Assembly (NCBI GenBank): GCA_946699065.1 | Contig: CAMPDV010000129.1 | Location: forward strand, 496,001-560,000 | Reading direction: 5' to 3' | Length of the DNA: 64,000 nucleotides | Origin: Loxodes magnus | Lineage: Eukaryota > Ciliophora > Karyorelictea > Loxodida > Loxodidae | Shown here: positions 8,342 through 64,000 of the stretch, one piece after another | Numbering within the stretch: position 1 is the first letter of the stretch | Layout of the letters: the number at the start of each line of letters is the position of its first letter | Position numbers and translations under genes: made by a program | Notes under the pieces: generated by a model | The model's input: the letters and a program-made list of their open reading frames with translations, nothing else | Database searches by the model: none | What the model was told of the DNA's origin: nothing

Positions 8342-8413
8342 AATTATATCAAATTCTTTTATAACTAAATGAAAGACAAAAGTCAATAAATATTCCCTCC
8401 TAATGTTTACTAA
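8342..8413. promoter_or_regulatory. Short divergent intergenic region
   Basis: Only 72 bp separate the VPS4 start (minus strand) from the ATG at 8414 of the possible plus-strand gene; an earlier in-frame ATG at 8369 would cut this to 27 bp. If both genes are real, both promoters must fit here or overlap coding sequence. No specific motif was identified. Confidence 0.3.
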
Positions 8414-9367
8414 ATGAAACTTAAAAGAAAATATCAGATTCTTATACTTTATGGCCTAATATCCCTTCTATATTATGCGTATTTTCGAATCTATTCAATT
8501 ATACTCCTAACTGCTTATTTAACTTTATTTATCATAACTATCTAAATTTTACTAGTCTTTAGTAATAAAAGCTTGATAATAACTAAACCAGCAACTCTGA
8601 GTTATTTTTAAGGAGATAATTTAAGTCTAAAGTTTTATTTACTAGAATATAAAAATTCAGAACTACAATTCTTGATAAGTAGAAGCCTTAATTATTTAAG
8701 GCTTTTTATAAATTAAATATGAAAAATGATAATATCATCAATCTAAAGCACCACTATTAATCTTACAAGCAGTTAAAAATAGTAATCTTAAATTAAGATA
8801 GTTCTATAAATAAAATTAATAGCCATTATAAAACAATTCTAATTAATTAATGATTAGCTTTATTTAAATATCTGCTTTTCTCCTTTGGAAATTACAATTT
8901 ATATTTAATATTTGACTGTTCCTTTCAATTATTTCAATAACTAAATGTTTTATATAGCTAATTTGCTTATACTATCATATAACTCCCTTAACCCTTATAA
9001 AATTACTTTTTCAGTAATGAAAAAGTTCATCTTAGTTTCTGACTTAGAGGTTTATTATTTTGTATTTACGTTATTAATTAGTTTAAGATTGTAGCATTTT
9101 AAGTAGTTATGAAATAGCTAAATTTTTTCCCAAATAAGCTAGTAATTTAAATATTAATGCTTAGAAGGAATATCTATATAAGCTTATAATACACCCCTTT
9201 ATAATGAAATATTATTGATAATTAAGCTTTCATTCCTTGATCCAAAGTATTACTAAAAGTGTTTAAATTAAGACTCTAATTTTATATTACTTATAGTTTC
9301 TGAATTAATATTTTAAATCGTCTCACTATCAATGAGGATAATACTTTATTTGACAAATTAAGTATGA
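8414..9367 (+). CDS. Possible membrane protein, about 317 aa
   Basis: No family is recognised. The frame from ATG 8414 (or 8369) holds TGA at 8720 and 9110, which fit as Trp, and TGA at 9365-9367, taken as the stop. The translation begins with a basic segment and two hydrophobic stretches of membrane-span length (about residues 8-45), followed by a mixed polar region and further hydrophobic helices. The TGA count is below the chance level for this composition but not decisively so. If real, the gene is divergent from VPS4 and converges on the phosphodiesterase with about 190 bp between stops. Any of the three TGA codons could be the true end. Confidence 0.38.
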
Positions 9368-16261: not shown

Positions 16262-16458
16262 TTATAGCTTGAGCATTTCTAATATTTTCTTAAATAATTC
16301 CTTAAGAAAGCCTTTGACTATCTTATTTACTTTATGAAGTTAAGTTCTTGAGAAGTTCTAATTGATATAACCCTAATTATATAATTAGTTCTTATATTCT
16401 TTTCCTAAAAGTTGCTATTGGTTCTAATGCTCATTTCTATAGCCAGAACAATTAAAAT
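16262..16458. promoter_or_regulatory. Divergent intergenic region upstream of the WD40 gene
   Basis: If the WD40 frame starts at 16459, these 197 bp separate it from the divergent minus-strand gene and should hold both promoters. If the WD40 gene starts at 17197, the intergenic region is about 935 bp. Open frames continue through this stretch on both strands, so the boundary is inferred. No motif was identified. Confidence 0.25.
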
Positions 16459-19400
16459 ATGTTAAAATTCGTAAAATCCTAGTTATATATTTAAATTGTA
16501 CTTGATTAGATATCAATATAACGTTGACTGAGTTAATATTTAAAATTATAAGAGTAGATTTCTCAGTTTATAAATGGAACTAATCTCCTAAGTAAGTCTT
16601 TTAATCAATTTAGTGTATTATACTTAAAGGAAGCACACTTTAATTATTTATACTTGATCTATTATTCTTTTCGCAGAAGGTATAAGTTTCTTAGGAAACA
16701 TTCTTAGAAAAACCTGCTTTAGATTTATGAATATGATGTTTATTCGAATTTTAACATGAGGTTGATAAAATTTAGATGCTTTTACTAAAATATCTCTAAT
16801 ATGCTAAATTATATTTAGAAAGATTTAAATTAAAAATGCGTTATAAGAATCAGGAACTCTTAAATAGACATTTAAATTAAAATAAAAGAGCGTAAACATC
16901 ATTGTTTCTAAATGAACAAAAAAAAACTAGTTTTAATCTATAGAAAATGTTTAATTGAAAGCAGATGTAGAAGATTTAAATCGACATTACGTAAACAAGA
17001 CTATAAAATTTAATATTTAAATTTATAAGTCCTTTAAGTACTATTAAAGTAAATCAAATTTTAATATAAACACAATATTAAGCCTACGGTAAATCATATA
17101 TATAAAGTTTATTAAACATATATGGAGAAGAAACTGCTATATTTAAAAATATTAAACAAGTTTTAGAGATCTTTATTGTGATTTAATAGAATCTTTATGT
17201 ATATCAGAATTATTAGTTTTTTCTTACTAATAATAAATACTAAAAAGTAGTAATTAATTCTATTTTATAAACCAGTTTAATTGGTTGCGATCTCCAATGA
17301 TCAGAAGTTCATTATCTCCGGAAGTTGAGATAACTTTATCAAAGTCTGGGATTTCCAGACTGGAAGTTGTACTCGGACATTAAGTGGACATTCTTCAAGA
17401 GTTAATTCGGTTGCGATCTCCAATGATCAGAAGTTCATTATCTCCGGAAGTAGAGATAACTCTATCAAAGTCTGGGATTTCCAGACTGGAAGTTGTACTA
17501 GGACATTAAGTGGACATTCCTCTGGAGTTTATTCGGTTGCGATCTCCAATGATCAGAAGTTCATTATCTCCGGAAGTGATGATCACTCAATCAAAGACTG
17601 GGATTTCCAGACTGGAAGTTGTACTCGGACATTAAGTGGACATTCCTCTGGAGTTTATTCGGTTGCGATCTCCAATGATCAGAAGTTCATTATCTCCGGA
17701 AGTGATGATCACTCAATCAAAGACTGGGATTTCCAGACTGGAAGTTGTACTAGGACATTAAGTGGACTCTCCAAGGCAGATATTTCGGTTGCGATCTCCA
17801 ATGATCAGAAGTTCATTATCTCCGGAAGTTCTGATAATTCTATCAAAGTCTGTGATTTCCAGACTGGAAGTTGTACTCGGACATTAAGTGGACATTCCTC
17901 TGGAGTTTATTCGGTTGCGATCTCCAATGATCAGAAGTTCATTATCTCCGGAAGTGATGATCACTCTATCAAAGTCTGGGATTTCCAGACTGGAAGTTGT
18001 ACTCGGACATTAAGTGGACATTCCTCTTTAGTTAATTCGGTGGCGATCTCCAATGATCAGAAGTTCATTATCTCCGGTAGTTCTGATAACTCTATCAAAG
18101 TCTGGGATTTCCAGACTGGAAGTTGTACTCGGACATTAAGGGGACATTCCTCTTTAGTTAATTCGGTTGCGATCTCCAATGATCAGAAGTTCATTATCTC
18201 CGGAAGTTTAGATAACTCTATCAAAGTCTGGGATTTCCAGACTGGAAGTTGTACTAGGACATTAAGTGGACATTCCTCTGGAGTTTATTCGGTTGCGATC
18301 TCCAATGATCAGAAGTTCATTATCTCCGGAAGTTGAGATAACTCTATCAAAGTCTTGGATTTCCAGACTGGAAGTTGTACTAGGACATTAAGTGGACATT
18401 CCTCTGGAGTTTATTCGGTTGCGATCTCCAATGATCAGAAGTTCATTATCTCCGGAAGTGATGATCACTCTATCAAAGTCTTGGATTTCCAGACTGGAAG
18501 TTGTACTAGGACATTAAGTGGACATTCCTCAAGAGTTAATTCGGTTGCGATCTCCAATGATCAGAAGTTCATTATTTCCGGAAGTTTAGATAACTCTATC
18601 AAAGTCTGGGATTTCCAGACTGGAAGTTGTACTAGGACATTAAGTGGACATTCCTCTTATGTTTATTCGGTTGCGATCTCCAATGATCAGAAGTTCATTA
18701 TCTCCGGAAGTTGAGATAACTCTATCAAAGTCTTGGATTTCCAGACTGGAAGTTGTACTAGGACATTAAGTGGACATTCCTCTTTAGTTAATTCGGTTGC
18801 GATCTCCAATGATCAGAAGTTCATTATCTCCGGAAGTTGAGATAACTCTATCAAAGTCTTGGATTTCCAGACTGGAAGTTGTACTAGGACATTAAGTGGA
18901 CATTCCTCTGGAGTTTATTCGGTTGCGATCTCCAATGATCAGAAGTTCATTATCTCCGGAAGTTGAGATAACTCTATCAAAGTCTTGGATTTCCAGACTG
19001 GAAGTTGTACTAGGACATTAAGTGGACATTCCTCAAGAGTTAATTCGGTTGCGATCTCCAATGATCAGAAGTTCATTATCTCCGGAAGTTGAGATAACTC
19101 TATCAAAGTCTGGGATTTCCAGACTGGAAGTTGTACTCGGACATTAAGTGGACATTCCTCTTATGTTTATTCGGTTGCGATCTCCAATGATCAGAAGTTC
19201 ATTATCTCCGGAAGTTGAGATAACTCTATCAAAGTCTTGGATTTCCAGACTGGAAGTTGTACTAGGACATTAAGTGGACATTCCTCAAGAGTTAATTCGG
19301 TTGCGATCTCCAATGATCAGAAGTTCATTATTTCCGGAAGTTTAGATAACTCTATCAAAGTCTGGGATTTCCAGACTGGAAGTTGTACTAGGACATTAAG

Positions 19401-22400
19401 TGGACATTCCTCTGGAGTTTATTCGGTTGCGATCTCCAATGATCAGAAGTTCATTATCTCCGGAAGTTTAGATAACTCTATCAAAGTCTGGGATTTCCAG
19501 ACTGGAAGTTGTACTAGGACATTAAGTGGACATTCCGCTTTAGTTAATTCGGTGGCGATCTCCAATGATCAGAAGTTCATTATCTCCGGAAGTTCTGATA
19601 ACTCTATCAAAGTCTGGGATTTCCAGACTGGAAGTTGTACTCGGACATTAAGTGGACATTCCTCTTTAGTTAATTCGGTGGCGATCTCCAATGATCAGAA
19701 GTTCATTATCTCCGGAAGTTGAGATAACTCTATCAAAGTCTGGGATTTCCAGACTGGAAGTTGTACTAGGACATTAAGTGGACATTCCTCTTATGTTTAT
19801 TCGGTTGCGATCTCCAATGATCAGAAGTTCATTATCTCCGGAAGTTCTGATAACTCTATCAAAGTCTGGGATTTCCAGACTGGAAGTTGTACTCGGACAT
19901 TAAGTGGACATTCCTCTGGAGTTTATTCGGTTGCGATCTCCAATGATCAGAAGTTCATTATTTCCGGAAGTAGAGATAACTCTATCAAAGTCTGGGATTT
20001 CCAGACTGGAAGTTGTACTCGGACATTAAGTGGACATTCCTCTTTAGTTAATTCGGTGGCGATCTCCAATGATCAGAAGTTCATTATCTCCGGAAGTGAT
20101 GATCACTCAATCAAAGACTGGGATTTCCAGACTGGAAGTTGTACTCGGACATTAAGTGGACATTCCTCTGGAGTTTATTCGGTTGCGATCTCCAATGATC
20201 AGAAGTTCATTATCTCCGGTAGTTCTGATAACTCTATCAAAGTCTGGGATTTCCAGACTGGAAGTTGTACTCGGACATTAAGTGGACATTCCTCTGGAGT
20301 TTATTCGGTTGCGATCTCCAATGATCAGAAGTTCATTATCTCCGGAATTGATGATCACTCAATCAAAGACTGGGATTTCCAGACTGGAAGTTGTACTAGG
20401 ACATTAAGTGGACATTCCTCTGGAGTTTATTCGGTTGCGATCTCCAATGATCAGAAGTTCATTATCTCCGGAAGTGATGATCACTCAATCAAAGACTGGG
20501 ATTTCCAGACTGGAAGTTGTACTCGGACATTAAGTGGACATTCTTCAAGAGTTAATTCGGTTGCGATCTCCAATGATCAGAAGTTCATTATCTCCGGAAG
20601 TAGAGATAACTCTATCAAAGTCTGGGATTTCCAGACTGGAAGTTGTACTAGGACATTAAGTGGACATTCCTCTGGAGTTTATTCGGTTGCGATCTCCAAT
20701 GATCAGAAGTTCATTATCTCCGGAAGTGATGATCACTCAATCAAAGACTGGGATTTCCAGACTGGAAGTTGTACTCGGACATTAAGTGGACATTCCTCTG
20801 GAGTTTATTCGGTTGCGATCTCCAATGATCAGAAGTTCATTATCTCCGGAAGTTGAGATAACTCTATCAAAGTCTGGGATTTCCAGACTGGAAGTTGTAC
20901 TAGGACATTAAGTGGACATTCCTCTTATGTTTATTCGGTTGCGATCTCCAATGATCAGAAGTTCATTATCTCCGGAAGTTGAGATAACTCTATCAAAGTC
21001 TTGGATTTCCAGACTGGAAGTTGTACTAGGACATTAAGTGGACATTCCTCTTTAGTTAATTCGGTGGCGATCTCCAATGATCAGAAGTTCATTATTTCCG
21101 GAAGTTTAGATAACTCTATCAAAGTCTGGGATTTCCAGACTGGAAGTTGTACTCGGACATTAAGTGGACATTCCTCTTTAGTTAATTCGGTGGCGATCTC
21201 CAATGATCAGAAGTTCATTATCTCCGGAAGTGATGATAACTCTATCAAAGTCTGGGATTTCCAGACTGGAAGTTGTACTAGGACATTAAGTGGACATTCC
21301 TCTGGAGTTTATTCGGTTGCGATCTCCAATGATCAGAAGTTCATTATCTCCGGAAGTAGAGATAACTCTATCAAAGTCTTGGATTTCCAGACTGGAAGTT
21401 GTACTAGGACATTAAGTGGACATTCCTCTTTAGTTAATTCGGTTGCGATCTCCAATGATCAGAAGTTCATTATTTCCGGAAGTTTAGATAACTCTATCAA
21501 AGTCTGGGATTTCCAGACTGGAAGTTGTACTCGGACATTAAGTGGACATTCCTCTGGAGTTTATTCGGTTGCGATCTCCAATGATCAGAAGTTCATTATC
21601 TCCGGAATTGATGATCACTCAATCAAAGACTGGGATTTCCAGACTGGAAGTTGTACTAGGACATTAAGTGGACATTCCTCTGGAGTTTATTCGGTTGCGA
21701 TCTCCAATGATCAGAAGTTCATTATCTCCGGAAGTGATGATCACTCAATCAAAGACTGGGATTTCCAGACTGGAAGTTGTACTAGGACATTAAGTGGACA
21801 TTCCTCTTTAGTTAATTCGGTTGCGATCTCCAATGATCAGAAGTTCATTATCTCCGGAATTGATGATAACTCTATCAAAGACTGGGATTTCCAGACTGGA
21901 AGTTGTACTAGGACATTAAGTGGACATTCCTCTGGAGTTTATTCGGTTGCGATCTCCAATGATCAGAAGTTCATTATCTCCGGAAGTGATGATCACTCAA
22001 TCAAAGACTGGGATTTCCAGACTGGAAGTTGTACTAGGACATTAAGTGGACATTCCTCTGGAGTTTATTCGGTTGCGATCTCCAATGATCAGAAGTTCAT
22101 TATCTCCGGAAGTGATGATCACTCAATCAAAGACTGGGATTTCCAGACTGGAAGTTGTACTAGGACATTAAGTGGACATTCCTCTTTAGTTAATTCGGTG
22201 GCGATCTCCAATGATCAGAAGTTCATTATCTCCGGAAGTGATGATCACTCAATCAAAGACTGGGATTTCCAGACTGGAAGTTGTACTCGGACATTAAGTG
22301 GACATTCCTCTGGAGTTTATTCGGTTGCGATCTCCAATGATCAGAAGTTCATTATCTCCGGAAGTGATGATCACTCTATCAAAGTCTGGGATTTCCAGAC

Positions 22401-25400
22401 TGGAAGTTGTACTAGGACATTAAGTGGACATTCCTCTGGAGTTTATTCGGTTGCGATCTCCAATGATCAGAAGTTCATTATCTCCGGAAGTAGAGATAAC
22501 TCTATCAAAGTCTTGGATTTCCAGACTGGAAGTTGTACTAGGACATTAAGTGGACATTCCTCTTATGTTTATTCGGTTGCGATCTCCAATGATCAGAAGT
22601 TCATTATTTCCGGAAGTTTAGATAACTCTATCAAAGTCTGGGATTTCCAGACTGGAAGTTGTACTCGGACATTAAGTGGACATTCCTCTTTAGTTAATTC
22701 GGTGGCGATCTCCAATGATCAGAAGTTCATTATCTCCGGAAGTTTAGATAACTCAATCAAAGACTGGGATTTCCAGACTGGAAGTTGTACTAGGACATTA
22801 AGTGGACATTCCTCTTTAGTTAATTCGGTTGCGATCTCCAATGATCAGAAGTTCATTATTTCCGGAAGTTTAGATAACTCTATCAAAGTCTGGGATTTCC
22901 AGACTGGAAGTTGTACTCGGACATTAAGTGGACATTCCTCTGGAGTTTATTCGGTTGCGATCTCCAATGATCAGAAGTTCATTATCTCCGGAATTGATGA
23001 TCACTCAATCAAAGACTGGGATTTCCAGACTGGAAGTTGTACTAGGACATTAAGTGGACATTCCTCTGGAGTTTATTCGGTTGCGATCTCCAATGATCAG
23101 AAGTTCATTATCTCCGGAAGTGATGATCACTCAATCAAAGACTGGGATTTCCAGACTGGAAGTTGTACTAGGACATTAAGTGGACATTCCTCTGGAGTTT
23201 ATTCGGTTGCGATCTCCAATGATCAGAAGTTCATTATCTCCGGAAGTTGAGATAACTCTATCAAAGTCTTGGATTTCCAGACTGGAAGTTGTACTAGGAC
23301 ATTAAGTGGACATTCCTCTTATGTTTATTCGGTTGCGATCTCCAATGATCAGAAGTTCATTATCTCCGGAAGTGATGATAACTCTATCAAAGTCTGGGAT
23401 TTCCAGACTGGAAGTTGTACTCGGACATTAAGTGGACATTCCAAGGCAGTTTATTCGGTTGCGATCTCCAATGATCAGAAGTTCATTATTTCCGGAAGTT
23501 TAGATAACTCTATCAAAGTCTGGGATTTCCAGACTGGAAGTTGTACTCGGACATTAAGTGGACATTCCTCTTATGTTTATTCGGTTGCGATCTCCAATGA
23601 TCAGAAGTTCATTATCTCCGGAAGTGATGATAACTCTATCAAAGTCTGGGATTTCCAGACTGGAAGTTGTACTAGGACATTAAGTGGACATTCCTCTTAG
23701 TTTATTCGGTTGCGATCTCCAATGATCAGAAGTTCATTATCTCCGGAAGTTTAGATAACTCTATCAAAGTCTGGGATTTCCAGACTGGAAGTTGTACTAG
23801 GACATTAAGTGGACATTCCTCTTTAGTTAATTCGGTGGCGATCTCCAATGATCAGAAGTTCATTATCTCCGGAAGTTCTGATAACTCTATCAAAGTCTGG
23901 GATTTCCAGACTGGAAGTTGTACTCGGACATTAAGTGGACATTCCTCTTAGTTTATTCGGTTGCGATCTCCAATGATCAGAAGTTCATTATCTCCGGAAG
24001 TGAGATAACTCTATCAAAGTCTTGGATTTCCAGACTGGAAGTTGTACTAGGACATTAAGTGGACATTCCTCTTTAGTTAATTCGGTTGCGATCTCCAATG
24101 ATCAGAAGTTCATTATCTCCGGAAGTTTAGATAACTCTATCAAAGTCTGGGATTTCCAGACTGGAAGTTGTACTCGGACATTAAGTGGACATTCCTCTTT
24201 AGTTAATTCGGTGGCGATCTCCAATGATCAGAAGTTCATTATCTCCGGAAGTTTAGATAACTCTATCAAAGTCTGGGATTTCCAGACTGGAAGTTGTACT
24301 AGGACATTAAGTGGACATTCCTCTTTAGTTAATTCGGTTGCGATCTCCAATGATCAGAAGTTCATTATCTCCGGAAGTTTAGATAACTCTATCAAAGTCT
24401 GGGATTTCCAGACTGGAAGTTGTACTCGGACATTAAGTGGACATTCCTCTTTAGTTAATTCGGTGGCGATCTCCAATGATCAGAAGTTCATTATCTCCGG
24501 AAGTTCTGATAACTCTATCAAAGTCTGGGATTTCCAGACTGGAAGTTGTACTCGGACATTAAGTGGACATTCCTCTTTAGTTTATTCGGTTGCGATCTCC
24601 AATGATCAGAAGTTCATTATCTCCGGTAGTTCTGATAACTCTATCAAAGTCTGGGATTTCCAGACTGGAAGTTGTACTCGGACATTAAGTGGACATTCCT
24701 CTTTAGTTAATTCGGTGGCGATCTCCAATGATCAGAAGTTCATTATCTCCGGAAGTGATGATCACTCTATCAAAGTCTGGGATTTCCAGACTGGAAGTTG
24801 TACTAGGACATTAAGTGGACATTCCTCTTTAGTTAATTCGGTTGCGATCTCCAATGATCAGAAGTTCATTATCTCCGGAAGTGATGATCACTCTATCAAA
24901 GTCTGGGATTTCCAGACTGGAAGTTGTACTAGGACATTAAGTGGACATTCCTCTGGAGTTTATTCGGTTGCGATCTCCAATGATCAGAAGTTCATTATCT
25001 CCGGAATTGATGATCACTCAATCAAAGACTGGGATTTCCAGACTGGAAGTTGTACTAGGACATTAAGTGGACATTCCTCTTAGTTTATTCGGTTGCGATC
25101 TCCAATGATCAGAAGTTCATTATCTCCGGAAGTTGAGATAACTCTATCAAAGTCTTGGATTTCCAGACTGGAAGTTGTACTCGGACATTAAGTGGACATT
25201 CCTCTTATGTTTATTCGGTTGCGATCTCCAATGATCAGAAGTTCATTATTTCCGGAAGTTTAGATAACTCTATCAAAGTCTGGGATTTCCAGACTGGAAG
25301 TTGTACTCGGACATTAAGTGGACATTCCTCTTATGTTTATTCGGTTGCGATCTCCAATGATCAGAAGTTCATTATCTCCGGAAGTTGAGATAACTCTATC

Positions 25401-28400
25401 AAAGTCTTGGATTTCCAGACTGGAAGTTGTACTCGGACATTAAGTGGACATTCCTCTTATGTTTATTCGGTTGCGATCTCCAATGATCAGAAGTTCATTA
25501 TCTCCGGAATTGATGATCACTCAATCAAAGACTGGGATTTCCAGACTGGAAGTTGTACTAGGACATTAAGTGGACATTCCTCTTTTGTTAATTCGGTGGC
25601 GATCTCCAATGATCAGAAGTTCATTATTTCCGGAAGTTTAGATAACTCTATCAAAGTCTGGGATTTCCAGACTGGAAGTTGTACTCGGACATTAAGTGGA
25701 CATTCCTCTTTAGTTAATTCGGTGGCGATCTCCAATGATCAGAAGTTCATTATCTCCGGAAGTTGAGATAACTCTATCAAAGTCTTGGATTTCCAGACTG
25801 GAAGTTGTACTAGGACATTAAGTGGACATTCCTCTTATGTTTATTCGGTTGCGATCTCCAATGATCAGAAGTTCATTATCTCCGGAAGTTGAGATAACTC
25901 TATCAAAGTCTTGGATTTCCAGACTGGAAGTTGTACTAGGACATTAAGTGGACATTCCTCTTTAGTTAATTCGGTTGCGATCTCCAATGATCAGAAGTTC
26001 ATTATCTCCGGAAGTTTAGATAACTCTATCAAAGTCTGGGATTTCCAGACTGGAAGTTGTACTAGGACATTAAGTGGACATTCCTCTTTAGTTAATTCGG
26101 TGGCGATCTCCAATGATCAGAAGTTCATTATCTCCGGAAGTGATGATCACTCAATCAAAGACTGGGATTTCCAGACTGGAAGTTGTACTAGGACATTAAG
26201 TGGACATTCCTCTTTAGTTAATTCGGTTGCGATCTCCAATGATCAGAAGTTCATTATCTCCGGAAGTAGAGATAACTCTATCAAAGTCTGGGATTTCCAG
26301 ACTGGAAGTTGTACTCGGACATTAAGTGGACATTCCTCTTTAGTTAATTCGGTGGCGATCTCCAATGATCAGAAGTTCATTATCTCCGGTAGTTCTGATA
26401 ACTCTATCAAAGTCTGGGATTTCCAGACTGGAAGTTGTACTCGGACATTAAGTGGACATTCCTCTGGAGTTTATTCGGTTGCGATCTCCAATGATCAGAA
26501 GTTCATTATCTCCGGTAGTTCTGATAACTCTATCAAAGTCTGGGATTTCCAGACTGGAAGTTGTACTCGGACATTAAGTGGACATTCCTCTTTAGTTAAT
26601 TCGGTGGCGATCTCCAATGATCAGAAGTTCATTATCTCCGGAAGTGATGATCACTCAATCAAAGACTGGGATTTCCAGACTGGAAGTTGTACTCGGACAT
26701 TAAGTGGACATTCCTCTGGAGTTTATTCGGTTGCGATCTCCAATGATCAGAAGTTCATTATCTCCGGAAGTGATGATCACTCAATCAAAGACTGGGATTT
26801 CCAGACTGGAAGTTGTACTAGGACATTAAGTGGACATTCCTCTTAGTTTATTCGGTTGCGATCTCCAATGATCAGAAGTTCATTATCTCCGGAAGTTGAG
26901 ATAACTCTATCAAAGTCTTGGATTTCCAGACTGGAAGTTGTACTAGGACATTAAGTGGACATTCCTCTGGAGTTTATTCGGTTGCGATCTCCAATGATCA
27001 GAAGTTCATTATCTCCGGAATTGATGATCACTCAATCAAAGACTGGGATTTCCAGACTGGAAGTTGTACTAGGACATTAAGTGGACATTCCTCTTATGTT
27101 TATTCGGTTGCGATCTCCAATGATCAGAAGTTCATTATCTCCGGAAGTTGAGATAACTCTATCAAAGTCTTGGATTTCCAGACTGGAAGTTGTACTCGGA
27201 CATTAAGTGGACATTCCTCTTTAGTTAATTCGGTTGCGATCTCCAATGATCAGAAGTTCATTATCTCCGGAAGTAGAGATAACTCTATCAAAGTCTGGGA
27301 TTTCCAGACTGGAAGTTGTACTCGGACATTAAGTGGACATTCCTCTTTAGTTAATTCGGTGGCGATCTCCAATGATCAGAAGTTCATTATCTCCGGTAGT
27401 TCTGATAACTCTATCAAAGTCTGGGATTTCCAGACTGGAAGTTGTACTCGGACATTAAGTGGACATTCCTCTTTAGTTTATTCGGTTGCGATCTCCAATG
27501 ATCAGAAGTTCATTATCTCCGGTAGTTCTGATAACTCTATCAAAGTCTGGGATTTCCAGACTGGAAGTTGTACTCGGACATTAAGTGGACATTCCTCTTT
27601 AGTTAATTCGGTGGCGATCTCCAATGATCAGAAGTTCATTATCTCCGGAAGTGATGATCACTCAATCAAAGACTGGGATTTCCAGACTGGAAGTTGTACT
27701 CGGACATTAAGTGGACATTCCTCTGGAGTTTATTCGGTTGCGATCTCCAATGATCAGAAGTTCATTATCTCCGGAATTGATGATCACTCAATCAAAGACT
27801 GGGATTTCCAGACTGGAAGTTGTACTAGGACATTAAGTGGACATTCCTCTTTAGTTTATTCGGTTGCGATCTCCAATGATCAGAAGTTCATTATCTCCGG
27901 AAGTGATGATCACTCTATCAAAGTCTGGGATTTCCAGACTGGAAGTTGTACTAGGACATTAAGTGGACATTCCTCTGGAGTTTATTCGGTTGCGATCTCC
28001 AATGATCAGAAGTTCATTATCTCCGGAATTGATGATCACTCAATCAAAGACTGGGATTTCCAGACTGGAAGTTGTACTAGGACATTAAGTGGACATTCCT
28101 CTTTAGTTAATTCGGTGGCGATCTCCAATGATCAGAAGTTCATTATCTCCGGAAGTTTAGATAACTCTATCAAAGTCTGGGATTTCCAGACTGGAAGTTG
28201 TACTAGGACATTAAGTGGACATTCCTCTTATGTTTATTCGGTTGCGATCTCCAATGATCAGAAGTTCATTATCTCCGGAAGTGATGATCACTCTATCAAA
28301 GTCTGGGATTTCCAGACTGGAAGTTGTACTAGGACATTAAGTGGACATTCCTCTGGAGTTTATTCGGTTGCGATCTCCAATGATCAGAAGTTCATTATCT

Positions 28401-52400: not shown

Positions 52401-55400
52401 CATTAAGTGGACATTCCTCTGGAGTTTATTTTGTTGCGATCTCCAATGATCAGAAGTTCATTATCTCCGGAAGTGATGATCACTCTATCAAAGTCTGGGA
52501 TTTCCAGACTGGAAGTTGTACTCGGACATTAAGTGGACATTCCTCTTTAGTTAATTCGGTGGCGATCTCCAATGATCAGAAGTTCATTATCTCCGGAAGT
52601 GATGATCACTCAATCAAAGACTGGGATTTCCAGACTGGAAGTTGTACTCGGACATTAAGTGGACATTCCTCTGGAGTTTATTCGGTTGCGATCTCCAATG
52701 ATCAGAAGTTCATTATCTCCGGAAGTGATGATCACTCTATCAAAGTCTGGGATTTCCAGACTGGAAGTTGTACTAGGACATTAAGTGGACATTCCTCTGG
52801 AGTTTATTCGGTTGCGATCTCCAATGATCAGAAGTTCATTATCTCCGGAAGTGATGATCACTCAATCAAAGACTGGGATTTCCAGACTGGAAGTTGTACT
52901 CGGACATTAAGTGGACATTCCTCTGGAGTTTATTCGGTTGCGATCTCCAATGATCAGAAGTTCATTATTTCCGGAAGTAGAGATAACTCTATCAAAGTCT
53001 TGGATTTCCAGACTGGAAGTTGTACTAGGACATTAAGTGGACATTCCTCTTATGTTTATTCGGTTGCGATCTCCAATGATCAGAAGTTCATTATCTCCGG
53101 AAGTTGAGATAACTCTATCAAAGTCTTGGATTTCCAGACTGGAAGTTGTACTAGGACATTAAGTGGACATTCCTCTTTAGTTAATTCGGTGGCGATCTCC
53201 AATGATCAGAAGTTCATTATTTCCGGAAGTTTAGATAACTCTATCAAAGTCTGGGATTTCCAGACTGGAAGTTGTACTAGGACATTAAGTGGACATTCCT
53301 CTTATGTTTATTCGGTTGCGATCTCCAATGATCAGAAGTTCATTATCTCCGGAAGTTCTGATAACTCTATCAAAGTCTGGGATTTCCAGACTGGAAGTTG
53401 TACTAGGACATTAAGTGGACATTCCTCTTATGTTTATTCGGTTGCGATCTCCAATGATCAGAAGTTCATTATCTCCGGAAGTTGAGATAACTCTATCAAA
53501 GTCTTGGATTTCCAGACTGGAAGTTGTACTCGGACATTAAGTGGACATTCCTCTTTAGTTAATTCGGTGGCGATCTCCAATGATCAGAAGTTCATTATCT
53601 CCGGAAGTGATGATCACTCTATCAAAGTCTGGGATTTCCAGACTGGAAGTTGTACTAGGACATTAAGTGGACATTCCTCTGGAGTTTATTTTGTTGCGAT
53701 CTCCAATGATCAGAAGTTCATTATCTCCGGAAGTGATGATCACTCTATCAAAGTCTGGGATTTCCAGACTGGAAGTTGTACTCGGACATTAAGTGGACAT
53801 TCCTCTTTAGTTAATTCGGTGGCGATCTCCAATGATCAGAAGTTCATTATCTCCGGAAGTCTTGATAACTCTATCAAAGTCTGGGATTTCCAGACTGGAA
53901 GTTGTACTCGGACATTAAGGGGACATTCCAAGGCAGTTATTTCGGTGGCGATCTCCAATGATCAGAAGTTCATTATCTCCGGAAGTGATGATCACTCAAT
54001 CAAAGACTGGGATTTCCAGACTGGAGGTTGTACTAGGACATTAAGTGGACATTCCTCTTTAGTTAATTCGGTTGCGATCTCCAATGATCAGAAGTTCATT
54101 ATCTCCGGAAGTTTAGATAACTCTATCAAAGTCTGGGATTTCCAGACTGGAAGTTGTACTCGGACATTAAGTGGACATTCCTCTTATGTTTATTCGGTTG
54201 CGATCTCCAATGATCAGAAGTTCATTATCTCCGGAAGTTGAGATAACTCTATCAAAGTCTTGGATTTCCAGACTGGAAGTTGTACTAGGACATTAAGTGG
54301 ACATTCCTCAAGAGTTAATTCGGTTGCGATCTCCAATGATCAGAAGTTCATTATTTCCGGAAGTTTAGATAACTCTATCAAAGTCTGGGATTTCCAGACT
54401 GGAAGTTGTACTAGGACATTAAGTGGACATTCCTCTGGAGTTTATTCGGTTGCGATCTCCAATGATCAGAAGTTCATTATCTCCGGAAGTGATGATCACT
54501 CTATCAAAGTCTGGGATTTCCAGACTGGAAGTTGTACTAGGACATTAAGTGGACATTCCGCTTTAGTTAATTCGGTGGCGATCTCCAATGATCAGAAGTT
54601 CATTATCTCCGGAAGTTCTGATAACTCTATCAAAGTCTGGGATTTCCAGACTGGAAGTTGTACTCGGACATTAAGTGGACATTCCTCTTTAGTTAATTCG
54701 GTGGCGATCTCCAATGATCAGAAGTTCATTATCTCCGGAAGTAGAGATAACTCTATCAAAGTCTGGGATTTCCAGACTGGAAGTTGTACTAGGACATTAA
54801 GTGGACATTCCTCTTATGTTTATTCGGTTGCGATCTCCAATGATCAGAAGTTCATTATCTCCGGAAGTTGAGATAACTCTATCAAAGTCTTGGATTTCCA
54901 GACTGGAAGTTGTACTAGGACATTAAGTGGACATTCCTCTTTAGTTAATTCGGTGGCGATCTCCAATGATCAGAAGTTCATTATTTCCGGAAGTAGAGAT
55001 AACTCTATCAAAGTCTGGGATTTCCAGACTGGAAGTTGTACTAGGACATTAAGTGGACATTCCTCTTTAGTTAATTCGGTGGCGATCTCCAATGATCAGA
55101 AGTTCATTATTTCCGGAAGTTTAGATAACTCTATCAAAGTCTGGGATTTCCAGACTGGAAGTTGTACTAGGACATTAAGTGGACATTCCTCTACAGTTAG
55201 TTCAGTGGCGATCTCCAATGATCAGAAGTTCATTATCTCCGGAAGTCTTGATAACTCTATCAAAGTCTGGGATTTCCAGACTGGAAGTTGTACTAGGACA
55301 TTAAGTGGACATTCCTCTTTAGTTAATTCGGTTGCGATCTCCAATGATCAGAAGTTCATTATCTCCGGAAGTGATGATCACTCTATCAAAGTCTGGTATT

Positions 55401-58400
55401 TCCAGACTGGAAGTTGTACTAGGACATTAAGTGGACATTCCTCTTATGTTTATTCGGTTGCGATCTCCAATGATCAGAAGTTCATTATCTCCGGAAGTGA
55501 TGATCACTCTATCAAAGTCTGTGATTTCCAGACTGGAAGTTGTACTAGGACATTAAGTGGACATTCCTCAAGAGTTAATTCGGTTGCGATCTCCAATGAT
55601 CAGAAGTTCATTATTTCCGGAAGTTTAGATAACTCTATCAAAGTCTGGGATTTCCAGACTGGAAGTTGTACTAGGACATTAAGTGGACATTCCTCTTATG
55701 TTTATTCGGTTGCGATCTCCAATGATCAGAAGTTCATTATCTCCGGAAGTTGAGATAACTCTATCAAAGTCTTGGATTTCCAGACTGGAAGTTGTACTAG
55801 GACATTAAGTGGACATTCCTCTTTAGTTAATTCGGTGGCGATCTCCAATGATCAGAAGTTCATTATCTCCGGAAGTAGAGATAACTCTATCAAAGTCTGG
55901 GATTTCCAGACTGGAAGTTGTACTAGGACATTAAGTGGACATTCCTCTGGAGTTTATTCGGTTGCGATCTCCAATGATCAGAAGTTCATTATCTCCGGAA
56001 GTTGAGATAACTCTATCAAAGTCTTGGATTTCCAGACTGGAAGTTGTACTAGGACATTAAGTGGACATTCCTCAAGAGTTAATTCGGTTGCGATCTCCAA
56101 TGATCAGAAGTTCATTATTTCCGGAAGTGATGATCACTCAATCAAAGACTGGGATTTCCAGACTGGAAGTTGTACTAGGACATTAAGTGGACATTCCTCT
56201 GGAGTTTATTCGGTTGCGATCTCCAATGATCAGAAGTTCATTATCTCCGGAAGTGATGATCACTCAATCAAAGACTGGGATTTCCAGACTGGAAGTTGTA
56301 CTCGGACATTAAGTAGACTCTCCAAGGCAGATATTTCGGTTGCGATCTCCAATGATCAGAAGTTCATTATCTCCGGAAGTTTAGATAACTCTATCAAAGT
56401 CTGGGATTTCCAGACTGGAAGTTGTACTAGGACATTAAGTGGACATTCCTCTGGAGTTTATTCGGTGGCGATCTCCAATGATCAGAAGTTCATTATCTCC
56501 GGAAGTTCTGATAACTCTATCAAAGTCTGGGATTTCCAGACTGGAAGTTGTACTAGGACATTAAGTGGACATTTCTCAAGAGTTAATTCGGTTGCGATCT
56601 CCAATGATCAGAAGTTCATTATCTCCGGAAGTTCTGATAACTCTATCAAAGTCTGGGATTTCCAGACTGGAAGTTGTACTCGGACATTAAGTGGACATTC
56701 CTCTTATGTTAATTCGGTTGCGATCTCCAATGATCAGAAGTTCATTATCTCCGGAAGTAGAGATAACTCTATCAAAGTCTGTGATTTCCAGACTGGAAGT
56801 TGTACTAGGACATTAAGTGGACATTCCTCTTTAGTTAATTCGGTGGCGATCTCCAATGATCAGAAGTTCATTATCTCCGGAAGTTCTGATAACTCTATCA
56901 AAGTCTGGGATTTCCAGACTGGAAGTTGTACTAGGACATTAAGTGGACATTCCTCAAGAGTTATTTCGGTTGCGATCTCCAATGATCAGAAGTTCATTAT
57001 CTCCGGAAGTAGAGATAACTCTATCAAAGTCTGGGATTTCCAGACTGGAAGTTGTACTCGGACATTAAGGGGACATTCCTCTTTAGTTAATTCGGTTGCG
57101 ATCTCCAATGATCAGAAGTTCATTATCTCCGGAAGTTTAGATAACTCTATCAAAGTCTGGGATTTCCAGACTGGAAGTTGTACTAGGACATTAAGTGGAC
57201 ATTCCTCTGGAGTTTATTCGGTTGCGATCTCCAATGATCAGAAGTTCATTATCTCCGGAAGTTGAGATAACTCTATCAAAGTCTTGGATTTCCAGACTGG
57301 AAGTTGTACTAGGACATTAAGTGGACATTCCTCTGGAGTTTATTCGGTTGCGATCTCCAATGATCAGAAGTTCATTATCTCCGGAAGTGATGATCACTCT
57401 ATCAAAGTCTTGGATTTCCAGACTGGAAGTTGTACTAGGACATTAAGTGGACATTCCTCAAGAGTTAATTCGGTTGCGATCTCCAATGATCAGAAGTTCA
57501 TTATTTCCGGAAGTTTAGATAACTCTATCAAAGTCTGGGATTTCCAGACTGGAAGTTGTACTAGGACATTAAGTGGACATTCCTCTTATGTTTATTCGGT
57601 TGCGATCTCCAATGATCAGAAGTTCATTATCTCCGGAAGTTGAGATAACTCTATCAAAGTCTTGGATTTCCAGACTGGAAGTTGTACTAGGACATTAAGT
57701 GGACATTCCTCTTTAGTTAATTCGGTTGCGATCTCCAATGATCAGAAGTTCATTATCTCCGGAAGTTGAGATAACTCTATCAAAGTCTTGGATTTCCAGA
57801 CTGGAAGTTGTACTAGGACATTAAGTGGACATTCCTCTGGAGTTTATTCGGTTGCGATCTCCAATGATCAGAAGTTCATTATCTCCGGAAGTTGAGATAA
57901 CTCTATCAAAGTCTTGGATTTCCAGACTGGAAGTTGTACTAGGACATTAAGTGGACATTCCTCAAGAGTTAATTCGGTTGCGATCTCCAATGATCAGAAG
58001 TTCATTATCTCCGGAAGTTGAGATAACTCTATCAAAGTCTGGGATTTCCAGACTGGAAGTTGTACTCGGACATTAAGTGGACATTCCTCTTATGTTTATT
58101 CGGTTGCGATCTCCAATGATCAGAAGTTCATTATCTCCGGAAGTTGAGATAACTCTATCAAAGTCTTGGATTTCCAGACTGGAAGTTGTACTAGGACATT
58201 AAGTGGACATTCCTCAAGAGTTAATTCGGTTGCGATCTCCAATGATCAGAAGTTCATTATTTCCGGAAGTTTAGATAACTCTATCAAAGTCTGGGATTTC
58301 CAGACTGGAAGTTGTACTAGGACATTAAGTGGACATTCCTCTGGAGTTTATTCGGTTGCGATCTCCAATGATCAGAAGTTCATTATCTCCGGAAGTTTAG

Positions 58401-61400
58401 ATAACTCTATCAAAGTCTGGGATTTCCAGACTGGAAGTTGTACTAGGACATTAAGTGGACATTCCGCTTTAGTTAATTCGGTGGCGATCTCCAATGATCA
58501 GAAGTTCATTATCTCCGGAAGTTCTGATAACTCTATCAAAGTCTGGGATTTCCAGACTGGAAGTTGTACTCGGACATTAAGTGGACATTCCTCTTTAGTT
58601 AATTCGGTGGCGATCTCCAATGATCAGAAGTTCATTATCTCCGGAAGTTGAGATAACTCTATCAAAGTCTGGGATTTCCAGACTGGAAGTTGTACTAGGA
58701 CATTAAGTGGACATTCCTCTTATGTTTATTCGGTTGCGATCTCCAATGATCAGAAGTTCATTATCTCCGGAAGTTCTGATAACTCTATCAAAGTCTGGGA
58801 TTTCCAGACTGGAAGTTGTACTCGGACATTAAGTGGACATTCCTCTGGAGTTTATTCGGTTGCGATCTCCAATGATCAGAAGTTCATTATTTCCGGAAGT
58901 AGAGATAACTCTATCAAAGTCTGGGATTTCCAGACTGGAAGTTGTACTCGGACATTAAGTGGACATTCCTCTTTAGTTAATTCGGTGGCGATCTCCAATG
59001 ATCAGAAGTTCATTATCTCCGGAAGTCTTGATAACTCTATCAAAGTCTGGGATTTCCAGACTGGAAGTTGTACTAGGACATTAAGTGGACATTCCTCTAC
59101 AGTTAGTTCAGTGGCGATCTCCAATGATCAGAAGTTCATTATCTCCGGAAGTCTTGATAACTCTATCAAAGTCTGGGATTTCCAGACTGGAAGTTGTACT
59201 AGGACATTAAGTGGACATTCCTCTGGAGTTTATTCGGTTGCGATCTCCAATGATCAGAAGTTCATTATCTCCGGAAGTGATGATCACTCTATCAAAGTCT
59301 TGGATTTCCAGACTGGAAGTTGTACTAGGACATTAAGTGGACATTCCTCAAGAGTTAATTCGGTTGCGATCTCCAATGATCAGAAGTTCATTATTTCCGG
59401 AAGTTTAGATAACTCTATCAAAGTCTGGGATTTCCAGACTGGAAGTTGTACTAGGACATTAAGTGGACATTCCTCTTATGTTTATTCGGTTGCGATCTCC
59501 AATGATCAGAAGTTCATTATCTCCGGAAGTTGAGATAACTCTATCAAAGTCTTGGATTTCCAGACTGGAAGTTGTACTAGGACATTAAGTGGACATTCCT
59601 CTTTAGTTAATTCGGTTGCGATCTCCAATGATCAGAAGTTCATTATCTCCGGAAGTTGAGATAACTCTATCAAAGTCTTGGATTTCCAGACTGGAAGTTG
59701 TACTAGGACATTAAGTGGACATTCCTCTGGAGTTTATTCGGTTGCGATCTCCAATGATCAGAAGTTCATTATCTCCGGAAGTTGAGATAACTCTATCAAA
59801 GTCTTGGATTTCCAGACTGGAAGTTGTACTAGGACATTAAGTGGACATTCCTCAAGAGTTAATTCGGTTGCGATCTCCAATGATCAGAAGTTCATTATTT
59901 CCGGAAGTTTAGATAACTCTATCAAAGTCTGGGATTTCCAGACTGGAAGTTGTACTAGGACATTAAGTGGACATTCCTCTTATGTTTATTCGGTTGCGAT
60001 CTCCAATGATCAGAAGTTCATTATCTCCGGAAGTTGAGATAACTCTATCAAAGTCTTGGATTTCCAGACTGGAAGTTGTACTAGGACATTAAGTGGACAT
60101 TCCTCTTTAGTTAATTCGGTTGCGATCTCCAATGATCAGAAGTTCATTATCTCCGGAAGTGATGATCACTCTATCAAAGTCTGGTATTTCCAGACTGGAA
60201 GTTGTACTAGGACATTAAGTGGACATTCCGCTTTAGTTAATTCGGTGGCGATCTCCAATGATCAGAAGTTCATTATCTCCGGAAGTTCTGATAACTCTAT
60301 CAAAGTCTGGGATTTCCAGACTGGAAGTTGTACTCGGACATTAAGTGGACATTCCTCTTTAGTTAATTCGGTGGCGATCTCCAATGATCAGAAGTTCATT
60401 ATCTCCGGAAGTGATGATCACTCAATCAAAGACTGGGATTTCCAGACTGGAAGTTGTACTAGGACATTAAGTGGACATTCCTCTGGAGTTTATTCGGTTG
60501 CGATCTCCAATGATCAGAAGTTCATTATCTCCGGAAGTGATGATCACTCAATCAAAGACTGGGATTTCCAGACTGGAAGTTGTACTCGGACATTAAGTAG
60601 ACTCTCCAAGGCAGATATTTCGGTTGCGATCTCCAATGATCAGAAGTTCATTATCTCCGGAAGTGATGATCACTCTATCAAAGTCTGGGATTTCCAGACT
60701 GGAAGTTGTACTAGGACATTAAGTGGACATTCCTCTGGAGTTTATTCGGTGGCGATCTCCAATGATCAGAAGTTCATTATCTCCGGAAGTTCTGATAACT
60801 CTATCAAAGTCTGGGATTTCCAGACTGGAAGTTGTACTAGGACATTAAGTGGACATTTCTCAAGAGTTAAATCGGTTGCGATCTCCAATGATCAGAAGTT
60901 CATTATCTCCGGAAGTTCTGATAACTCTATCAAAGTCTGGGATTTCCAGACTGGAAGTTGTACTCGGACATTAAGTGGACATTCCTCTTATGTTAATTCG
61001 GTTGCGATCTCCAATGATCAGAAGTTCATTATCTCCGGAAGTTGAGATAACTCTATCAAAGTCTTGGATTTCCAGACTGGAAGTTGTACTAGGACATTAA
61101 GTGGACATTCCTCTGGAGTTTATTCGGTTGCGATCTCCAATGATCAGAAGTTCATTATTTCCGGAAGTTTAGATAACTCTATCAAAGTCTGGGATTTCCA
61201 GACTGGAAGTTGTACTAGGACATTAAGTGGACATTCCTCAAGAGTTATTTCGGTTGCGATCTCCAATGATCAGAAGTTCATTATCTCCGGAAGTAGAGAT
61301 AACTCTATCAAAGTCTGGGATTTCCAGACTGGAAGTTGTACTCGGACATTAAGGGGACATTCCTCTTTAGTTAATTCGGTTGCGATCTCCAATGATCAGA

Positions 61401-64000
61401 AGTTCATTATCTCCGGAAGTTGAGATAACTCTATCAAAGTCTGGGATTTCCAGACTGGAAGTTGTACTCGGACATTAAGTGGACATTCCTCTGGAGTTTA
61501 TTCGGTTGCGATCTCCAATGATCAGAAGTTCATTATTTCCGGAAGTTGAGATAACTCTATCAAAGTCTTGGATTTCCAGACTGGAAGTTGTACTAGGACA
61601 TTAAGTGGACATTCCTCTGGAGTTTATTCGGTTGCGATCTCCAATGATCAGAAGTTCATTATCTCCGGAAGTGATGATCACTCTATCAAAGTCTGGGATT
61701 TCCAGACTGGAAGTTGTACTAGGACATTAAGTGGACATTCCTCTGGAGTTTATTCGGTTGCGATCTCCAATGATCAGAAGTTCATTATCTCCGGAAGTTG
61801 AGATAACTCTATCAAAGTCTGGGATTTCCAGACTGGAAGTTGTACTAGGACATTAAGTGGACATTCCTCTTATGTTTATTCGGTTGCGATCTCCAATGAT
61901 CAGAAGTTCATTATCTCCGGAAGTTTAGATAACTCTATCAAAGTCTGGGATTTCCAGACTGGAAGTTGTACTCGGACATTAAGTGGACATTCCTCTTTAG
62001 TTAATTCGGTGGCGATCTCCAATGATCAGAAGTTCATTATCTCCGGAAGTTGAGATAACTCTATCAAAGTCTGGGATTTCCAGACTGGAAGTTGTACTAG
62101 GACATTAAGTGGACATTCCTCTTATGTTTATTCGGTTGCGATCTCCAATGATCAGAAGTTCATTATCTCCGGAAGTTTAGATAACTCTATCAAAGTCTGG
62201 GATTTCCAGACTGGAAGTTGTACTCGGACATTAAGTGGACATTCCTCTTATGTTTATTCGGTTGCGATCTCCAATGATCAGAAGTTCATTATCTCCGGAA
62301 GTTGAGATAACTCTATCAAAGTCTTGGATTTCCAGACTGGAAGTTGTACTAGGACATTAAGTGGACATTCCTCAAGAGTTAATTCGGTTGCGATCTCCAA
62401 TGATCAGAAGTTCATTATTTCCGGAAGTTTAGATAACTCTATCAAAGTCTGGGATTTCCAGACTGGAAGTTGTACTAGGACATTAAGTGGACATTCCTCT
62501 GGAGTTTATTCGGTTGCGATCTCCAATGATCAGAAGTTCATTATCTCCGGAAGTTCTGATAACTCTATCAAAGTCTGGGATTTCCAGACTGGAAGTTGTA
62601 CTAGGACATTAAGTGGACATTCCTCTTTAGTTAATTCGGTGGCGATCTCCAATGATCAGAAGTTCATTATCTCCGGAAGTTCTGATAACTCTATCAAAGT
62701 CTGGGATTTCCAGACTGGAAGTTGTACTCGGACATTAAGTGGACATTCCTCTTTAGTTAATTCGGTGGCGATCTCCAATGATCAGAAGTTCATTATCTCC
62801 GGAAGTTGAGATAACTCTATCAAAGTCTGGGATTTCCAGACTGGAAGTTGTACTAGGACATTAAGTGGACATTCCTCTTATGTTTATTCGGTTGCGATCT
62901 CCAATGATCAGAAGTTCATTATCTCCGGAAGTTCTGATAACTCTATCAAAGTCTGGGATTTCCAGACTGGAAGTTGTACTCGGACATTAAGTGGACATTC
63001 CTCTGGAGTTTATTCGGTTGCGATCTCCAATGATCAGAAGTTCATTATTTCCGGAAGTAGAGATAACTCTATCAAAGTCTGGGATTTCCAGACTGGAAGT
63101 TGTACTAGGACATTAAGTGGACATTCCTCTTTAGTTAATTCGGTGGCGATCTCCAATGATCAGAAGTTCATTATCTCCGGAAGTCTTGATAACTCTATCA
63201 AAGTCTGGGATTTCCAGACTGGAAGTTGTACTAGGACATTAAGTGGACATTCCTCTACAGTTAGTTCAGTGGCGATCTCCAATGATCAGAAGTTCATTAT
63301 CTCCGGAAGTCTTGATAACTCTATCAAAGTCTGTGATTTCCAGACTGGAAGTTGTACTAGGACATTAAGTGGACATTCCTCTTTAGTTAATTCGGTTGCG
63401 ATCTCCAATGATCAGAAGTTCATTATCTCCGGAAGTTTAGATAACTCTATCAAAGTCTGGGATTTCCAGACTGGAAGTTGTACTCGGACATTAAGTGGAC
63501 ATTCCTCTTATGTTTATTCGGTTGCGATCTCCAATGATCAGAAGTTCATTATCTCCGGAAGTTGAGATAACTCTATCAAAGTCTTGGATTTCCAGACTGG
63601 AAGTTGTACTAGGACATTAAGTGGACATTCCTCAAGAGTTAATTCGGTTGCGATCTCCAATGATCAGAAGTTCATTATTTCCGGAAGTTTAGATAACTCT
63701 ATCAAAGTCTGGGATTTCCAGACTGGAAGTTGTACTAGGACATTAAGTGGACATTCCTCTTATGTTTATTCGGTTGCGATCTCCAATGATCAGAAGTTCA
63801 TTATCTCCGGAAGTTGAGATAACTCTATCAAAGTCTTGGATTTCCAGACTGGAAGTTGTACTAGGACATTAAGTGGACATTCCTCTTTAGTTAATTCGGT
63901 TGCGATCTCCAATGATCAGAAGTTCATTATCTCCGGAAGTGATGATCACTCTATCAAAGTCTGGTATTTCCAGACTGGAAGTTGTACTAGGACATTAAGT
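16459..64000 (+). CDS. Giant WD40-repeat protein, 3' end beyond window
   Basis: With TGA read as Trp, one frame runs from ATG 16459 into and along the repeat array, broken only by five single-base deletions at 23.7-26.9 kb. The first ~275 residues are not WD40: a Lys/Leu/Tyr/Phe-rich region of unrecognised fold, with in-frame TGA at 16525 and 17179. If TGA 17179 is a stop, the start would be ATG 17197, giving a short hydrophobic leader before the repeats. From 17284 every 42 residues repeat the WD40 pattern GHSS-x-V...SVAISNDQKFIISGS-x-DNSIKVWDFQTG. At seven or eight blades per propeller this is roughly 46-53 propellers and more than 15,500 residues. A scaffold or recognition surface is inferred from the family and from the variable positions. 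If TGA were always a stop, the array would be about 90 short untranslatable fragments. The start is uncertain; the WD40 content is not. Confidence 0.62.
18130..20090 (+). repeat. Segmental duplicate within the array, copy A
   Basis: The order of variant units from about 18.13 to 20.09 kb, starting at a TLRGHSSLVN unit and including several TGA units and a rare SALVN unit, recurs at about 57.06-59.02 kb. The offset is 38,929 bp, which is 309 units minus the five deleted bases. Upstream and downstream of the block the variants differ. Confidence 0.85.
23695..24003 (+). other. Three single-base deletions that together restore frame
   Basis: At 23695-23700 and 23946-23951 the string CTCTTAG replaces the usual CTCTTTAG, and at 23999-24003 GGAAGTGAGAT replaces GGAAGTTGAGAT. 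Each removes one T from a T-run. Between the first and the third the WD40 frame is lost, and after the third it returns to the original frame. Confidence 0.9.
25079..25083 (+). other. Single-base deletion (frameshift) in the array
   Basis: CTCTTAG instead of CTCTTTAG in a SSLVY unit. The WD40 frame shifts by one here and is not restored until other events, so a long WD40 frame crosses this point only if one T is added back. Confidence 0.9.
26841..26846 (+). other. Single-base deletion (frameshift) in the array
   Basis: The same CTCTTAG variant as at 23695, 23946 and 25079. It is the last indel in the window; from here to 64000 the 126-bp period and reading frame are perfect. Confidence 0.9.
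28400..31150 (+). repeat. Tandem higher-order duplication, 12-unit offset
   Basis: The run of units from about 28.40 to 29.64 kb recurs at about 29.91-31.15 kb with an offset of 1,512 bp (12 x 126). It includes the rare SSFVN unit and the SRDN...KVLDF unit. Only a few units differ between the copies. Confidence 0.8.
38925..42480 (+). repeat. Higher-order spacing of the LRGHSKAVIS unit
   Basis: The distinctive unit with TLRGHSKAVIS occurs near 38.93, 39.93, 41.19 and 42.45 kb; the last three are 1,260 bp (10 units) apart. More copies lie near 45.10, 45.48 and 53.93 kb. The surrounding unit order is largely shared, consistent with block duplication. Confidence 0.75.
48968..52900 (+). repeat. 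Triplicated block marked by the rare GVYFVAIS unit
   Basis: A GVYF unit followed by DDH-KV, SLVN, DDH-KD, GVYS, DDH-KV, GVYS, DDH-KD occurs from about 49.0, 50.6 and 52.4 kb. The marker strings start at 49019, 50657 and 52421, giving offsets of 1,638 (13 units) and 1,764 (14 units). The marker also occurs alone near 35.16, 47.26, 51.92 and 53.69 kb. Confidence 0.8.
57060..59020 (+). repeat. Segmental duplicate within the array, copy B
   Basis: Same order of about 15-16 variant units as 18.13-20.09 kb. Parts of this block appear again at 59.23-60.1 kb and 62.32-63.1 kb, so the right end of the array is built from recent copies of one segment. Confidence 0.85.

Follow-up and report, generated by a model that had tools for sequence, protein, structure and literature searches.

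The window analysed here, 64,000 nucleotides of the Loxodes magnus assembly (contig C129, positions 496001–560000), raises the question of what a head-to-tail array of hundreds of nearly identical WD40 repeats represents: a giant gene, a satellite derived from a gene, a store of gene parts, or a product of assembly. Tandem Repeats Finder delimits the array at positions 17277–64000 of the forward strand, with a period of 126 bp, 370.9 copies, 94% matches and 0% indels. Together with the match of the unit to the Pfam WD40 family, this bears out the more than 370 near-identical WD40 repeats of a preliminary description made from the sequence. The first complete unit, which runs from V1 to S42, occupies positions 17284–17409. 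The window contains 370 complete units, 365 of which are 126 bp long and five 125 bp; the latter are the five one-base exceptions previously described, and all are deletions. The array also continues past the window, as had been claimed. 1,323 units were counted up to the window-equivalent coordinate 184000, and the last 2 kb before the contig end at ~228405 are still array, with ~42 kb before them unread. The array amounts to ~211 kb in the assembly, and ~164 kb of it lie beyond the window. The GC content is ~40–43% in the array and 23–29% in the left flank, measured in 2-kb bins. In the whole assembly (705,730,643 bases in 7,843 contigs), an exact 29-base word of the window unit family occurs 13,101 times (7,793 + 5,308) and an exact 32-base word of the unit family of contig C9 occurs 3,542 times; reversed-word controls for both gave zero copies.

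The unit is a WD40 repeat, and a chance or low-complexity origin of the array is excluded. In positions 26822–28200, PF00400 matches 11 stretches in 459 amino acids with a score of 357 bits, against a cut-off of 27, and an E-value of 1.7e-110. A segment of 7.5 window units is predicted by AlphaFold2 to form a WD40 propeller with four strands per unit (pLDDT 87.7, pTM 0.79). The model matches WD40 propellers in Foldseek, such as 7bie_A with TM scores of 0.85/0.94, and the best matches include ODA16, designed symmetric propellers, the repetitive protein 2YMU and the WD40 domain of PkwA. The best match of the unit sequence in the PDB is 2ymu_A (E 3.5e-110).

The preliminary description placed the repeats in one reading frame over 46.7 kb, which did not hold. 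Five 1-bp deletions interrupt the frame in the units at 23584–23708, 23835–23959, 23960–24084, 24967–25091 and 26730–26854. The deletion at 23960 is distinct from the others; the remaining four units (23584, 23835, 24967 and 26730), all within 3.3 kb, share a single deletion, which indicates that frameshifted units were copied inside the array. Beyond the window, the net changes are one more 1-bp deletion, near 97.4 kb, and a loss of 40 bp at 174.4 kb. None of the four distinct kinds of indel in the array is a multiple of three, and all shift the frame. Open stretches of more than 150 codons, counted with TGA as tryptophan and with TAA and TAG taken as stops, are spread over three frames of the forward strand. 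They extend over 17281–23697 (frame 1; 2,139 codons, 11 TGA), 23935–25080 (frame 1), 25059–26843 (frame 3) and 26822–64000 (frame 2; 12,393 codons, 75 TGA), the last being the longest in the window. Frame 2 stays open from 26822 to the window-equivalent position 97511, over ~23,560 codons.

The earlier reading of TGA as tryptophan is supported. Codon 15 is the only one at which in-frame TGA is common; it is present there in 89 of 363 units as an alternative to Asp, Ser, Leu or Arg; at codons 13 and 38 it occurs once each among 1,316 units. The intact sister genes described below carry TGA inside their WD40 part, and the karyorelict code, according to PMC11441545, uses UGA both as the sole stop and as tryptophan. 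Because TAA and TAG are glutamine codons and TGA can be tryptophan in this code, an open frame is weak evidence for coding.

Five frameshifts in the window and a left end located in an interspersed repeat mean that no continuous frame with a start and a stop was found. The interspersed repeat at 16280–17265, which abuts the array, is old and tentatively LINE-like, tentatively on the reverse strand, and its other copies are 70–77% identical. Among the 40 scored copies of 775 candidates, most match only to ~16980, while the copies on C97 and C120 reach 17265; an RVT_1 match in the C97 copy is below the cut-off. A coding N-terminus at 17277 was rejected since the flank is this repeat, although by coincidence the first units share their frame with an ATG at 17197. 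Further to the left, the reverse strand carries a Vps4-like MIT-AAA ATPase gene (7049–8494), which requires TAA and TAG as glutamine and fits the karyorelict code. The forward strand contains a glutamine-rich, coiled-coil-like open frame without a Pfam family (199–1857), and a Pfam scan of seven other open frames of the flank found no family. A symbiont or bacterial origin is ruled out by the 705.7-Mb genome, the glutamine-coded TAA and TAG of the Vps4-like gene, and the inferred 20–21-bp introns of related genes.

The rare variants of the array record how selection acts on it. Variants found in at most three of 1,315 units comprise 33 single-base changes, 23 nonsynonymous and 10 synonymous, in a count that leaves out four multi-base rows and one misphased unit; by codon position they are evenly distributed, 9/12/12. 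Under neutrality, the mutation spectrum observed here predicts a synonymous share of 27%. Variants present in 2–9 units, which are unlikely to be sequencing errors, number by difference 12 nonsynonymous and 4 synonymous. For the array units, the data reject omega values up to 0.4 (P=0.029) but not a value of 0.5 (P=0.10). In contrast, the kinase domains of the related genes are under strong constraint: those on C1796 and C46 differ by 24 synonymous changes and one nonsynonymous change in 265 codons, and those on C9 and C1323 by seven and none over 265 codons; the comparison of kinase-domain constraint with the array variants gives a Fisher value of 1e-8. The array shows no detectable protein constraint now. 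With 33 rare variants, a weak constraint of omega ~0.5 is compatible with the data, and assembly errors would likewise look neutral among rare variants.

Purifying selection or a very recent expansion had been proposed to account for the regular period. Recent expansion with homogenisation fits these results. A giant protein under purifying selection would agree neither with the neutral ratio of 23:10 nor with the frameshifting indels. The proposal that more than 15,500 propeller residues are encoded in one protein is unsupported because the rare variants are neutral and every one of the four kinds of indel breaks the frame. The rare mutations between 17284 and 184000 are also strongly AT-biased (eight C>T, five G>T, five G>A and five C>A, with five towards GC), yet the array has a GC content of 40%; its composition is thus inherited or maintained, away from mutational equilibrium.

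The common variation of the units is concentrated at a few positions. The highest amino-acid entropies among the 42 sites are those of sites 39, 15, 41 and 17, which together hold 59% of the total. In the first unit, the codons of sites 15, 17, 39 and 41 lie at 17326–17328, 17332–17334, 17398–17400 and 17404–17406. The 1,315 units contain 67 combinations of residues at these sites and 200 distinct unit proteins. The variable sites form two pairs, 18 residues apart, each of which flanks a conserved residue (Val40 and Asp16). In the NWD genes of Podospora, codons 7/9 and 25/27 are under positive selection, as stated in PMC1805685 and PMC2873952. Matched by spacing and flanking residue, without alignment to the Podospora sequences, these codons are sites 39/41 and 15/17 of the array. 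The chance of picking exactly these four of 42 sites is 1 in 111,930. As judged from this correspondence, the four most variable sites of the array are the four positively selected surface sites of the fungal HET-D/E receptors.

The array unit has counterparts in complete genes elsewhere in the assembly. Near another array, on C9, there is a complete gene with a kinase domain (PF07714, E 3.2e-58; also PF00069) followed by seven WD40 repeats. The kinase occupies residues 18–264 and the WD40 part begins at ~313, which leaves no room for a NACHT domain between them (25 of 48 families shown). In an assembly search with the C9 kinase, 121 of 4,456 candidates were scored, and all 121 match. Eight kinase-WD40 genes were read, and seven are intact, with a TKL-type kinase, one inferred intron of 20–21 bp, seven WD40 repeats and TGA. 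The WD40 part consists of 4–5 near-identical repeats and 2–3 diverged ones. The eighth gene, on C1323 (45301–48000), has an intact kinase and frameshifted WD40 units. The genes on C1796 and C46 carry the unit family of the window. Contig C272 has both a kinase-WD40 gene and an array of a third WD40 unit family (the AIALSNDTKWIVSGS type), found with probes between 190001 and 370300. The kinase-WD40 genes presumably have a role in recognition.

The kinase genes and arrays belong to a dispersed module. C9 and C1796 are collinear from the array edge (within ~1.1 and 0.45 kb) through the kinase gene, at 66–88% by block. A 1.6-kb probe from the module spacer gave 40 scored copies of 228 candidates; a listed kinase lies 5.8–7.3 kb (median 6.3 kb) from 29 of these 40, with identical order and orientation in all 29 pairs, whereas none of the 121 listed kinase matches accompanies the other 11. 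The idea of a recent isolated satellite was dropped once the spacer proved common to many modules. A six-frame scan of the spacer (C9:8001–15300) found no Pfam family, and thus no transposase was seen. At the far end of the module, an array in the same orientation as the kinase gene is present on C9, C1503, C1832, C620 and C1796, at a distance of ~10–11 kb from the kinase. The array edge was read in C9 and C1796, and was placed by a boundary match in the other three. Contig C272 has the same order with a gap of 7–17 kb and no spacer copy among the 40 listed. On C4046 (13001–16000), the array is at the usual place but mostly inverted relative to the kinase gene; a remnant unit in the usual orientation is located at its boundary.

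There is a second WD40 site ~10–11 kb 5' of the kinase gene, which holds a short WD40 sequence in some copies of the module and a long array in others. Twenty further module copies were probed 4 kb past the spacer, and an array was found in one (C2869, co-oriented) and in none of the other 19. In eight of these 19, namely C9:1913960, C87a, two on C462, C512a, C6979, C456 and C119, WD40 sequence lies directly at the boundary. The matched WD40 sequence corresponds to about four units at C9:1913960 and to one to two units in the other seven copies. These upstream stretches, known from matches in a boundary search that scored 12 of 194 candidates, may be short intact genes. The C9 array may have a coding N-terminal region, which has no Pfam match and as a probe found only itself, and it ends in TGA followed by AT-rich sequence. 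At the end of the C1796 array, what appears to be a remnant of the following diverged repeat is accompanied by a TGA. Both observations agree with an expansion that took place within a gene.

On C129, C46 and C119, the contig stops within the array on its 3' side, and the corresponding modules are therefore not visible. The kinase matches of C46 and C119 are remote from the arrays there, and none of the 121 listed is on C129. Neither a gene start nor a 3' module is in view for the window array. Since the contig stops before the 3' neighbour of this array, we infer its probable place in the module from the sister arrays, and its membership from unit sequence.

The repeats of the kinase genes were compared with those of the arrays. 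Of four C1796 gene units compared, two are equal to C129 array units in 126 of 126 bases, one at 20812–20937 on the forward strand, with a second copy at 61757–61882, and the other at 160162, beyond the window. The third has three mismatches to C129, and the fourth is a chimera with a diverged C-terminal repeat. Counted in 126-bp windows, the C1796 gene units have 5, 2, 0 and 2 mismatches to their own array and 3, 0, 0 and 2 to the C129 array. The C9 gene units have 0, 0, 0 and 6 mismatches to the C9 array, of which 10 kb were sampled, or 0, 0, 1 and 9 in another phase, and the gene and the array share an exact stretch of 265 bp. The units of the C46 gene, which is more than 600 kb from its array and in the opposite orientation, are not closer to their own array (7, 9, 4 and 6 mismatches to a sample) than to that of C129 (4, 7, 5 and 1). 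Similarly, the C620 gene units have 12, 10, 11 and 14 mismatches to 600 bp of their own array and 6, 9, 8 and 10 to C9. For the C272 gene, the array on C272 is the only one to which it is close. C1796 may continue the C129 array on its 3' side: 27 of 49 units of the C1796 array have exact copies in C129, but their variant frequencies do not match those at the C129 array end.

In the reading that we consider probable, a hypervariable WD40 gene underwent runaway expansion in place and became this satellite-like array, whose units recombination keeps uniform and on which constraint is no longer visible. The processes that would keep WD40 repeats uniform, unequal crossing-over and gene conversion, may have run away in some copies of the module. 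The upstream WD40 gene would have lengthened from a few to hundreds or more than 1,000 units, and the window array would be one such expanded copy. A single functional gene of tens of thousands of residues is the least probable of the readings considered. The unit length is a multiple of three, frame 2 is open over its ~23,560 codons, and the C9 array has its possible N-terminal region and ends in TGA, but openness is nearly automatic under this code. The rare variants are neutral, and five frameshifts lie in the window, with more beyond. There is no gene start at 17277. In the C9 array, nine of the 96 spacings listed differ from 126, and the N-terminal region lacks both a Pfam match and a second copy. 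It is very unlikely that a much shorter array was grossly inflated by the assembler, even though the authors of PMC11441545 explain the size difference between their two assemblies by probable misassembly at low-complexity repeats. A looped assembly should copy blocks of read length, and the longest exact repeat within the 1,323 units spans 22 units (~2.8 kb), on which ground a large-scale loop artefact was rejected. Moreover, variant frequencies drift along the C129 array, and the many contigs with such arrays hold the 13,101 exact 29-base words of the family. The exact array length is uncertain under every reading.

Alternatively, the array may be a bank of WD40 units that rewrites the recognition face of the kinase-WD40 genes by gene conversion, and be kept for diversity and not for a protein of its own. 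We regard this as unlikely. Gene and array units are near-identical at C9 and C1796, with the matching following the unit family, and the variable sites coincide with receptor contact sites. The C1796 and C46 genes, with their one nonsynonymous kinase change in 265 codons, have propellers that differ at 22 of 28 variable sites and at 14 of 267 other sites. The frameshifted WD40 units of the C1323 gene are what donation by array units of 125 or 127 bp would be expected to produce. However, the same-locus identity at C9 and C1796 is predicted by expansion and donation alike, and is not general: the C46 and C620 genes are no closer to their own arrays, and the C46 gene lies over 600 kb from its array. 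Nineteen of the 20 further module copies have no array at the probed point, and the array-free kinase-WD40 gene on C512 is intact. Any exchange between genes and arrays could have run in either direction. TPR-like repeats with a spacing of ~102 bp also form tandem runs of scored matches, at C1412:5695–71918, C752:85885–98886, C57:996871–998700 and elsewhere, and some of these have long open frames, such as one of 2,156 codons on C1412. Amplification may therefore be general to coding repeats in this genome and not particular to this gene. It is likewise unlikely that a unicellular eukaryote maintains tandem banks of hundreds to more than 1,000 WD40 units beside kinase-WD40 receptor genes as donors for their recognition face, which would represent cassette-based receptor diversification outside animals.

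The HNWD loci of Podospora anserina (het-D, het-E and het-R) have 2–15 repeats according to Table 2 of PMC1805685. They resemble the Loxodes genes and arrays in the high internal identity of the repeats, in concerted evolution, and in four variable codons arranged in two pairs that flank conserved residues. They differ in the N-terminal part, which is HET-NACHT in Podospora and a kinase in Loxodes, where the C9 gene leaves no room for a NACHT domain, and in repeat number, since the eight genes read here have seven repeats and the arrays hundreds to more than 1,000 units. Repetitive prokaryotic WD40 proteins (PDB 2YMU; PkwA WD40 domain, PDB 5YZV) provide the best PDB sequence match (2ymu_A) and fold matches, and have the repeat numbers of ordinary proteins, unlike the arrays. 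2YMU is cyanobacterial, and PkwA is also a kinase-WD40 protein; we know of no long arrays of highly repetitive prokaryotic WD40 proteins. The VLR cassettes of lampreys are numerous repeat-protein modules near a receptor gene; a cassette store in Loxodes would work like them, or like silent archives of antigen genes. The Loxodes arrays share with the VLR system the large number of repeat-protein modules near a receptor gene, but they are tandem arrays and not scattered cassettes. Seven of the eight kinase-WD40 genes read are complete, in an assembly taken to be somatic. The 706-Mbp L. magnus assembly is macronuclear according to PMC11441545. Like satellite DNA, the window array is long, homogeneous and head-to-tail, with neutral rare mutations and no protein constraint in a test that has the power to reject only omega values up to 0.4. 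What sets it apart from satellite DNA is its unit, an entire protein repeat that has counterparts in genes which are intact and under constraint.

A literature search returned no account of WD40 in Loxodes or karyorelicts, no satellite tandem array of WD40 repeats and no ciliate kinome report of kinase-WD40 proteins; a search for a 126-bp WD40 tandem repeat returned only a plant siRNA review. The term WD40 is absent from the main text of the genome paper (PMC11441545). Part of the low-complexity tandem repeat masked in that paper may be derived from protein-coding sequence. Hypervariable WD40 receptors with exchanging repeats are already known in fungi. In Loxodes, which belongs to a deep lineage of ciliates, this design is combined with a kinase and occurs in many copies of one module, and at homologous sites the pool of repeats has become larger by one to two orders of magnitude. 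The route from coding repeats to satellite-like DNA, and whether such pools return diversity to receptors, thereby become testable. In Loxodes, the array would represent parts of a gene turning satellite-like, or perhaps a store of spare recognition parts.
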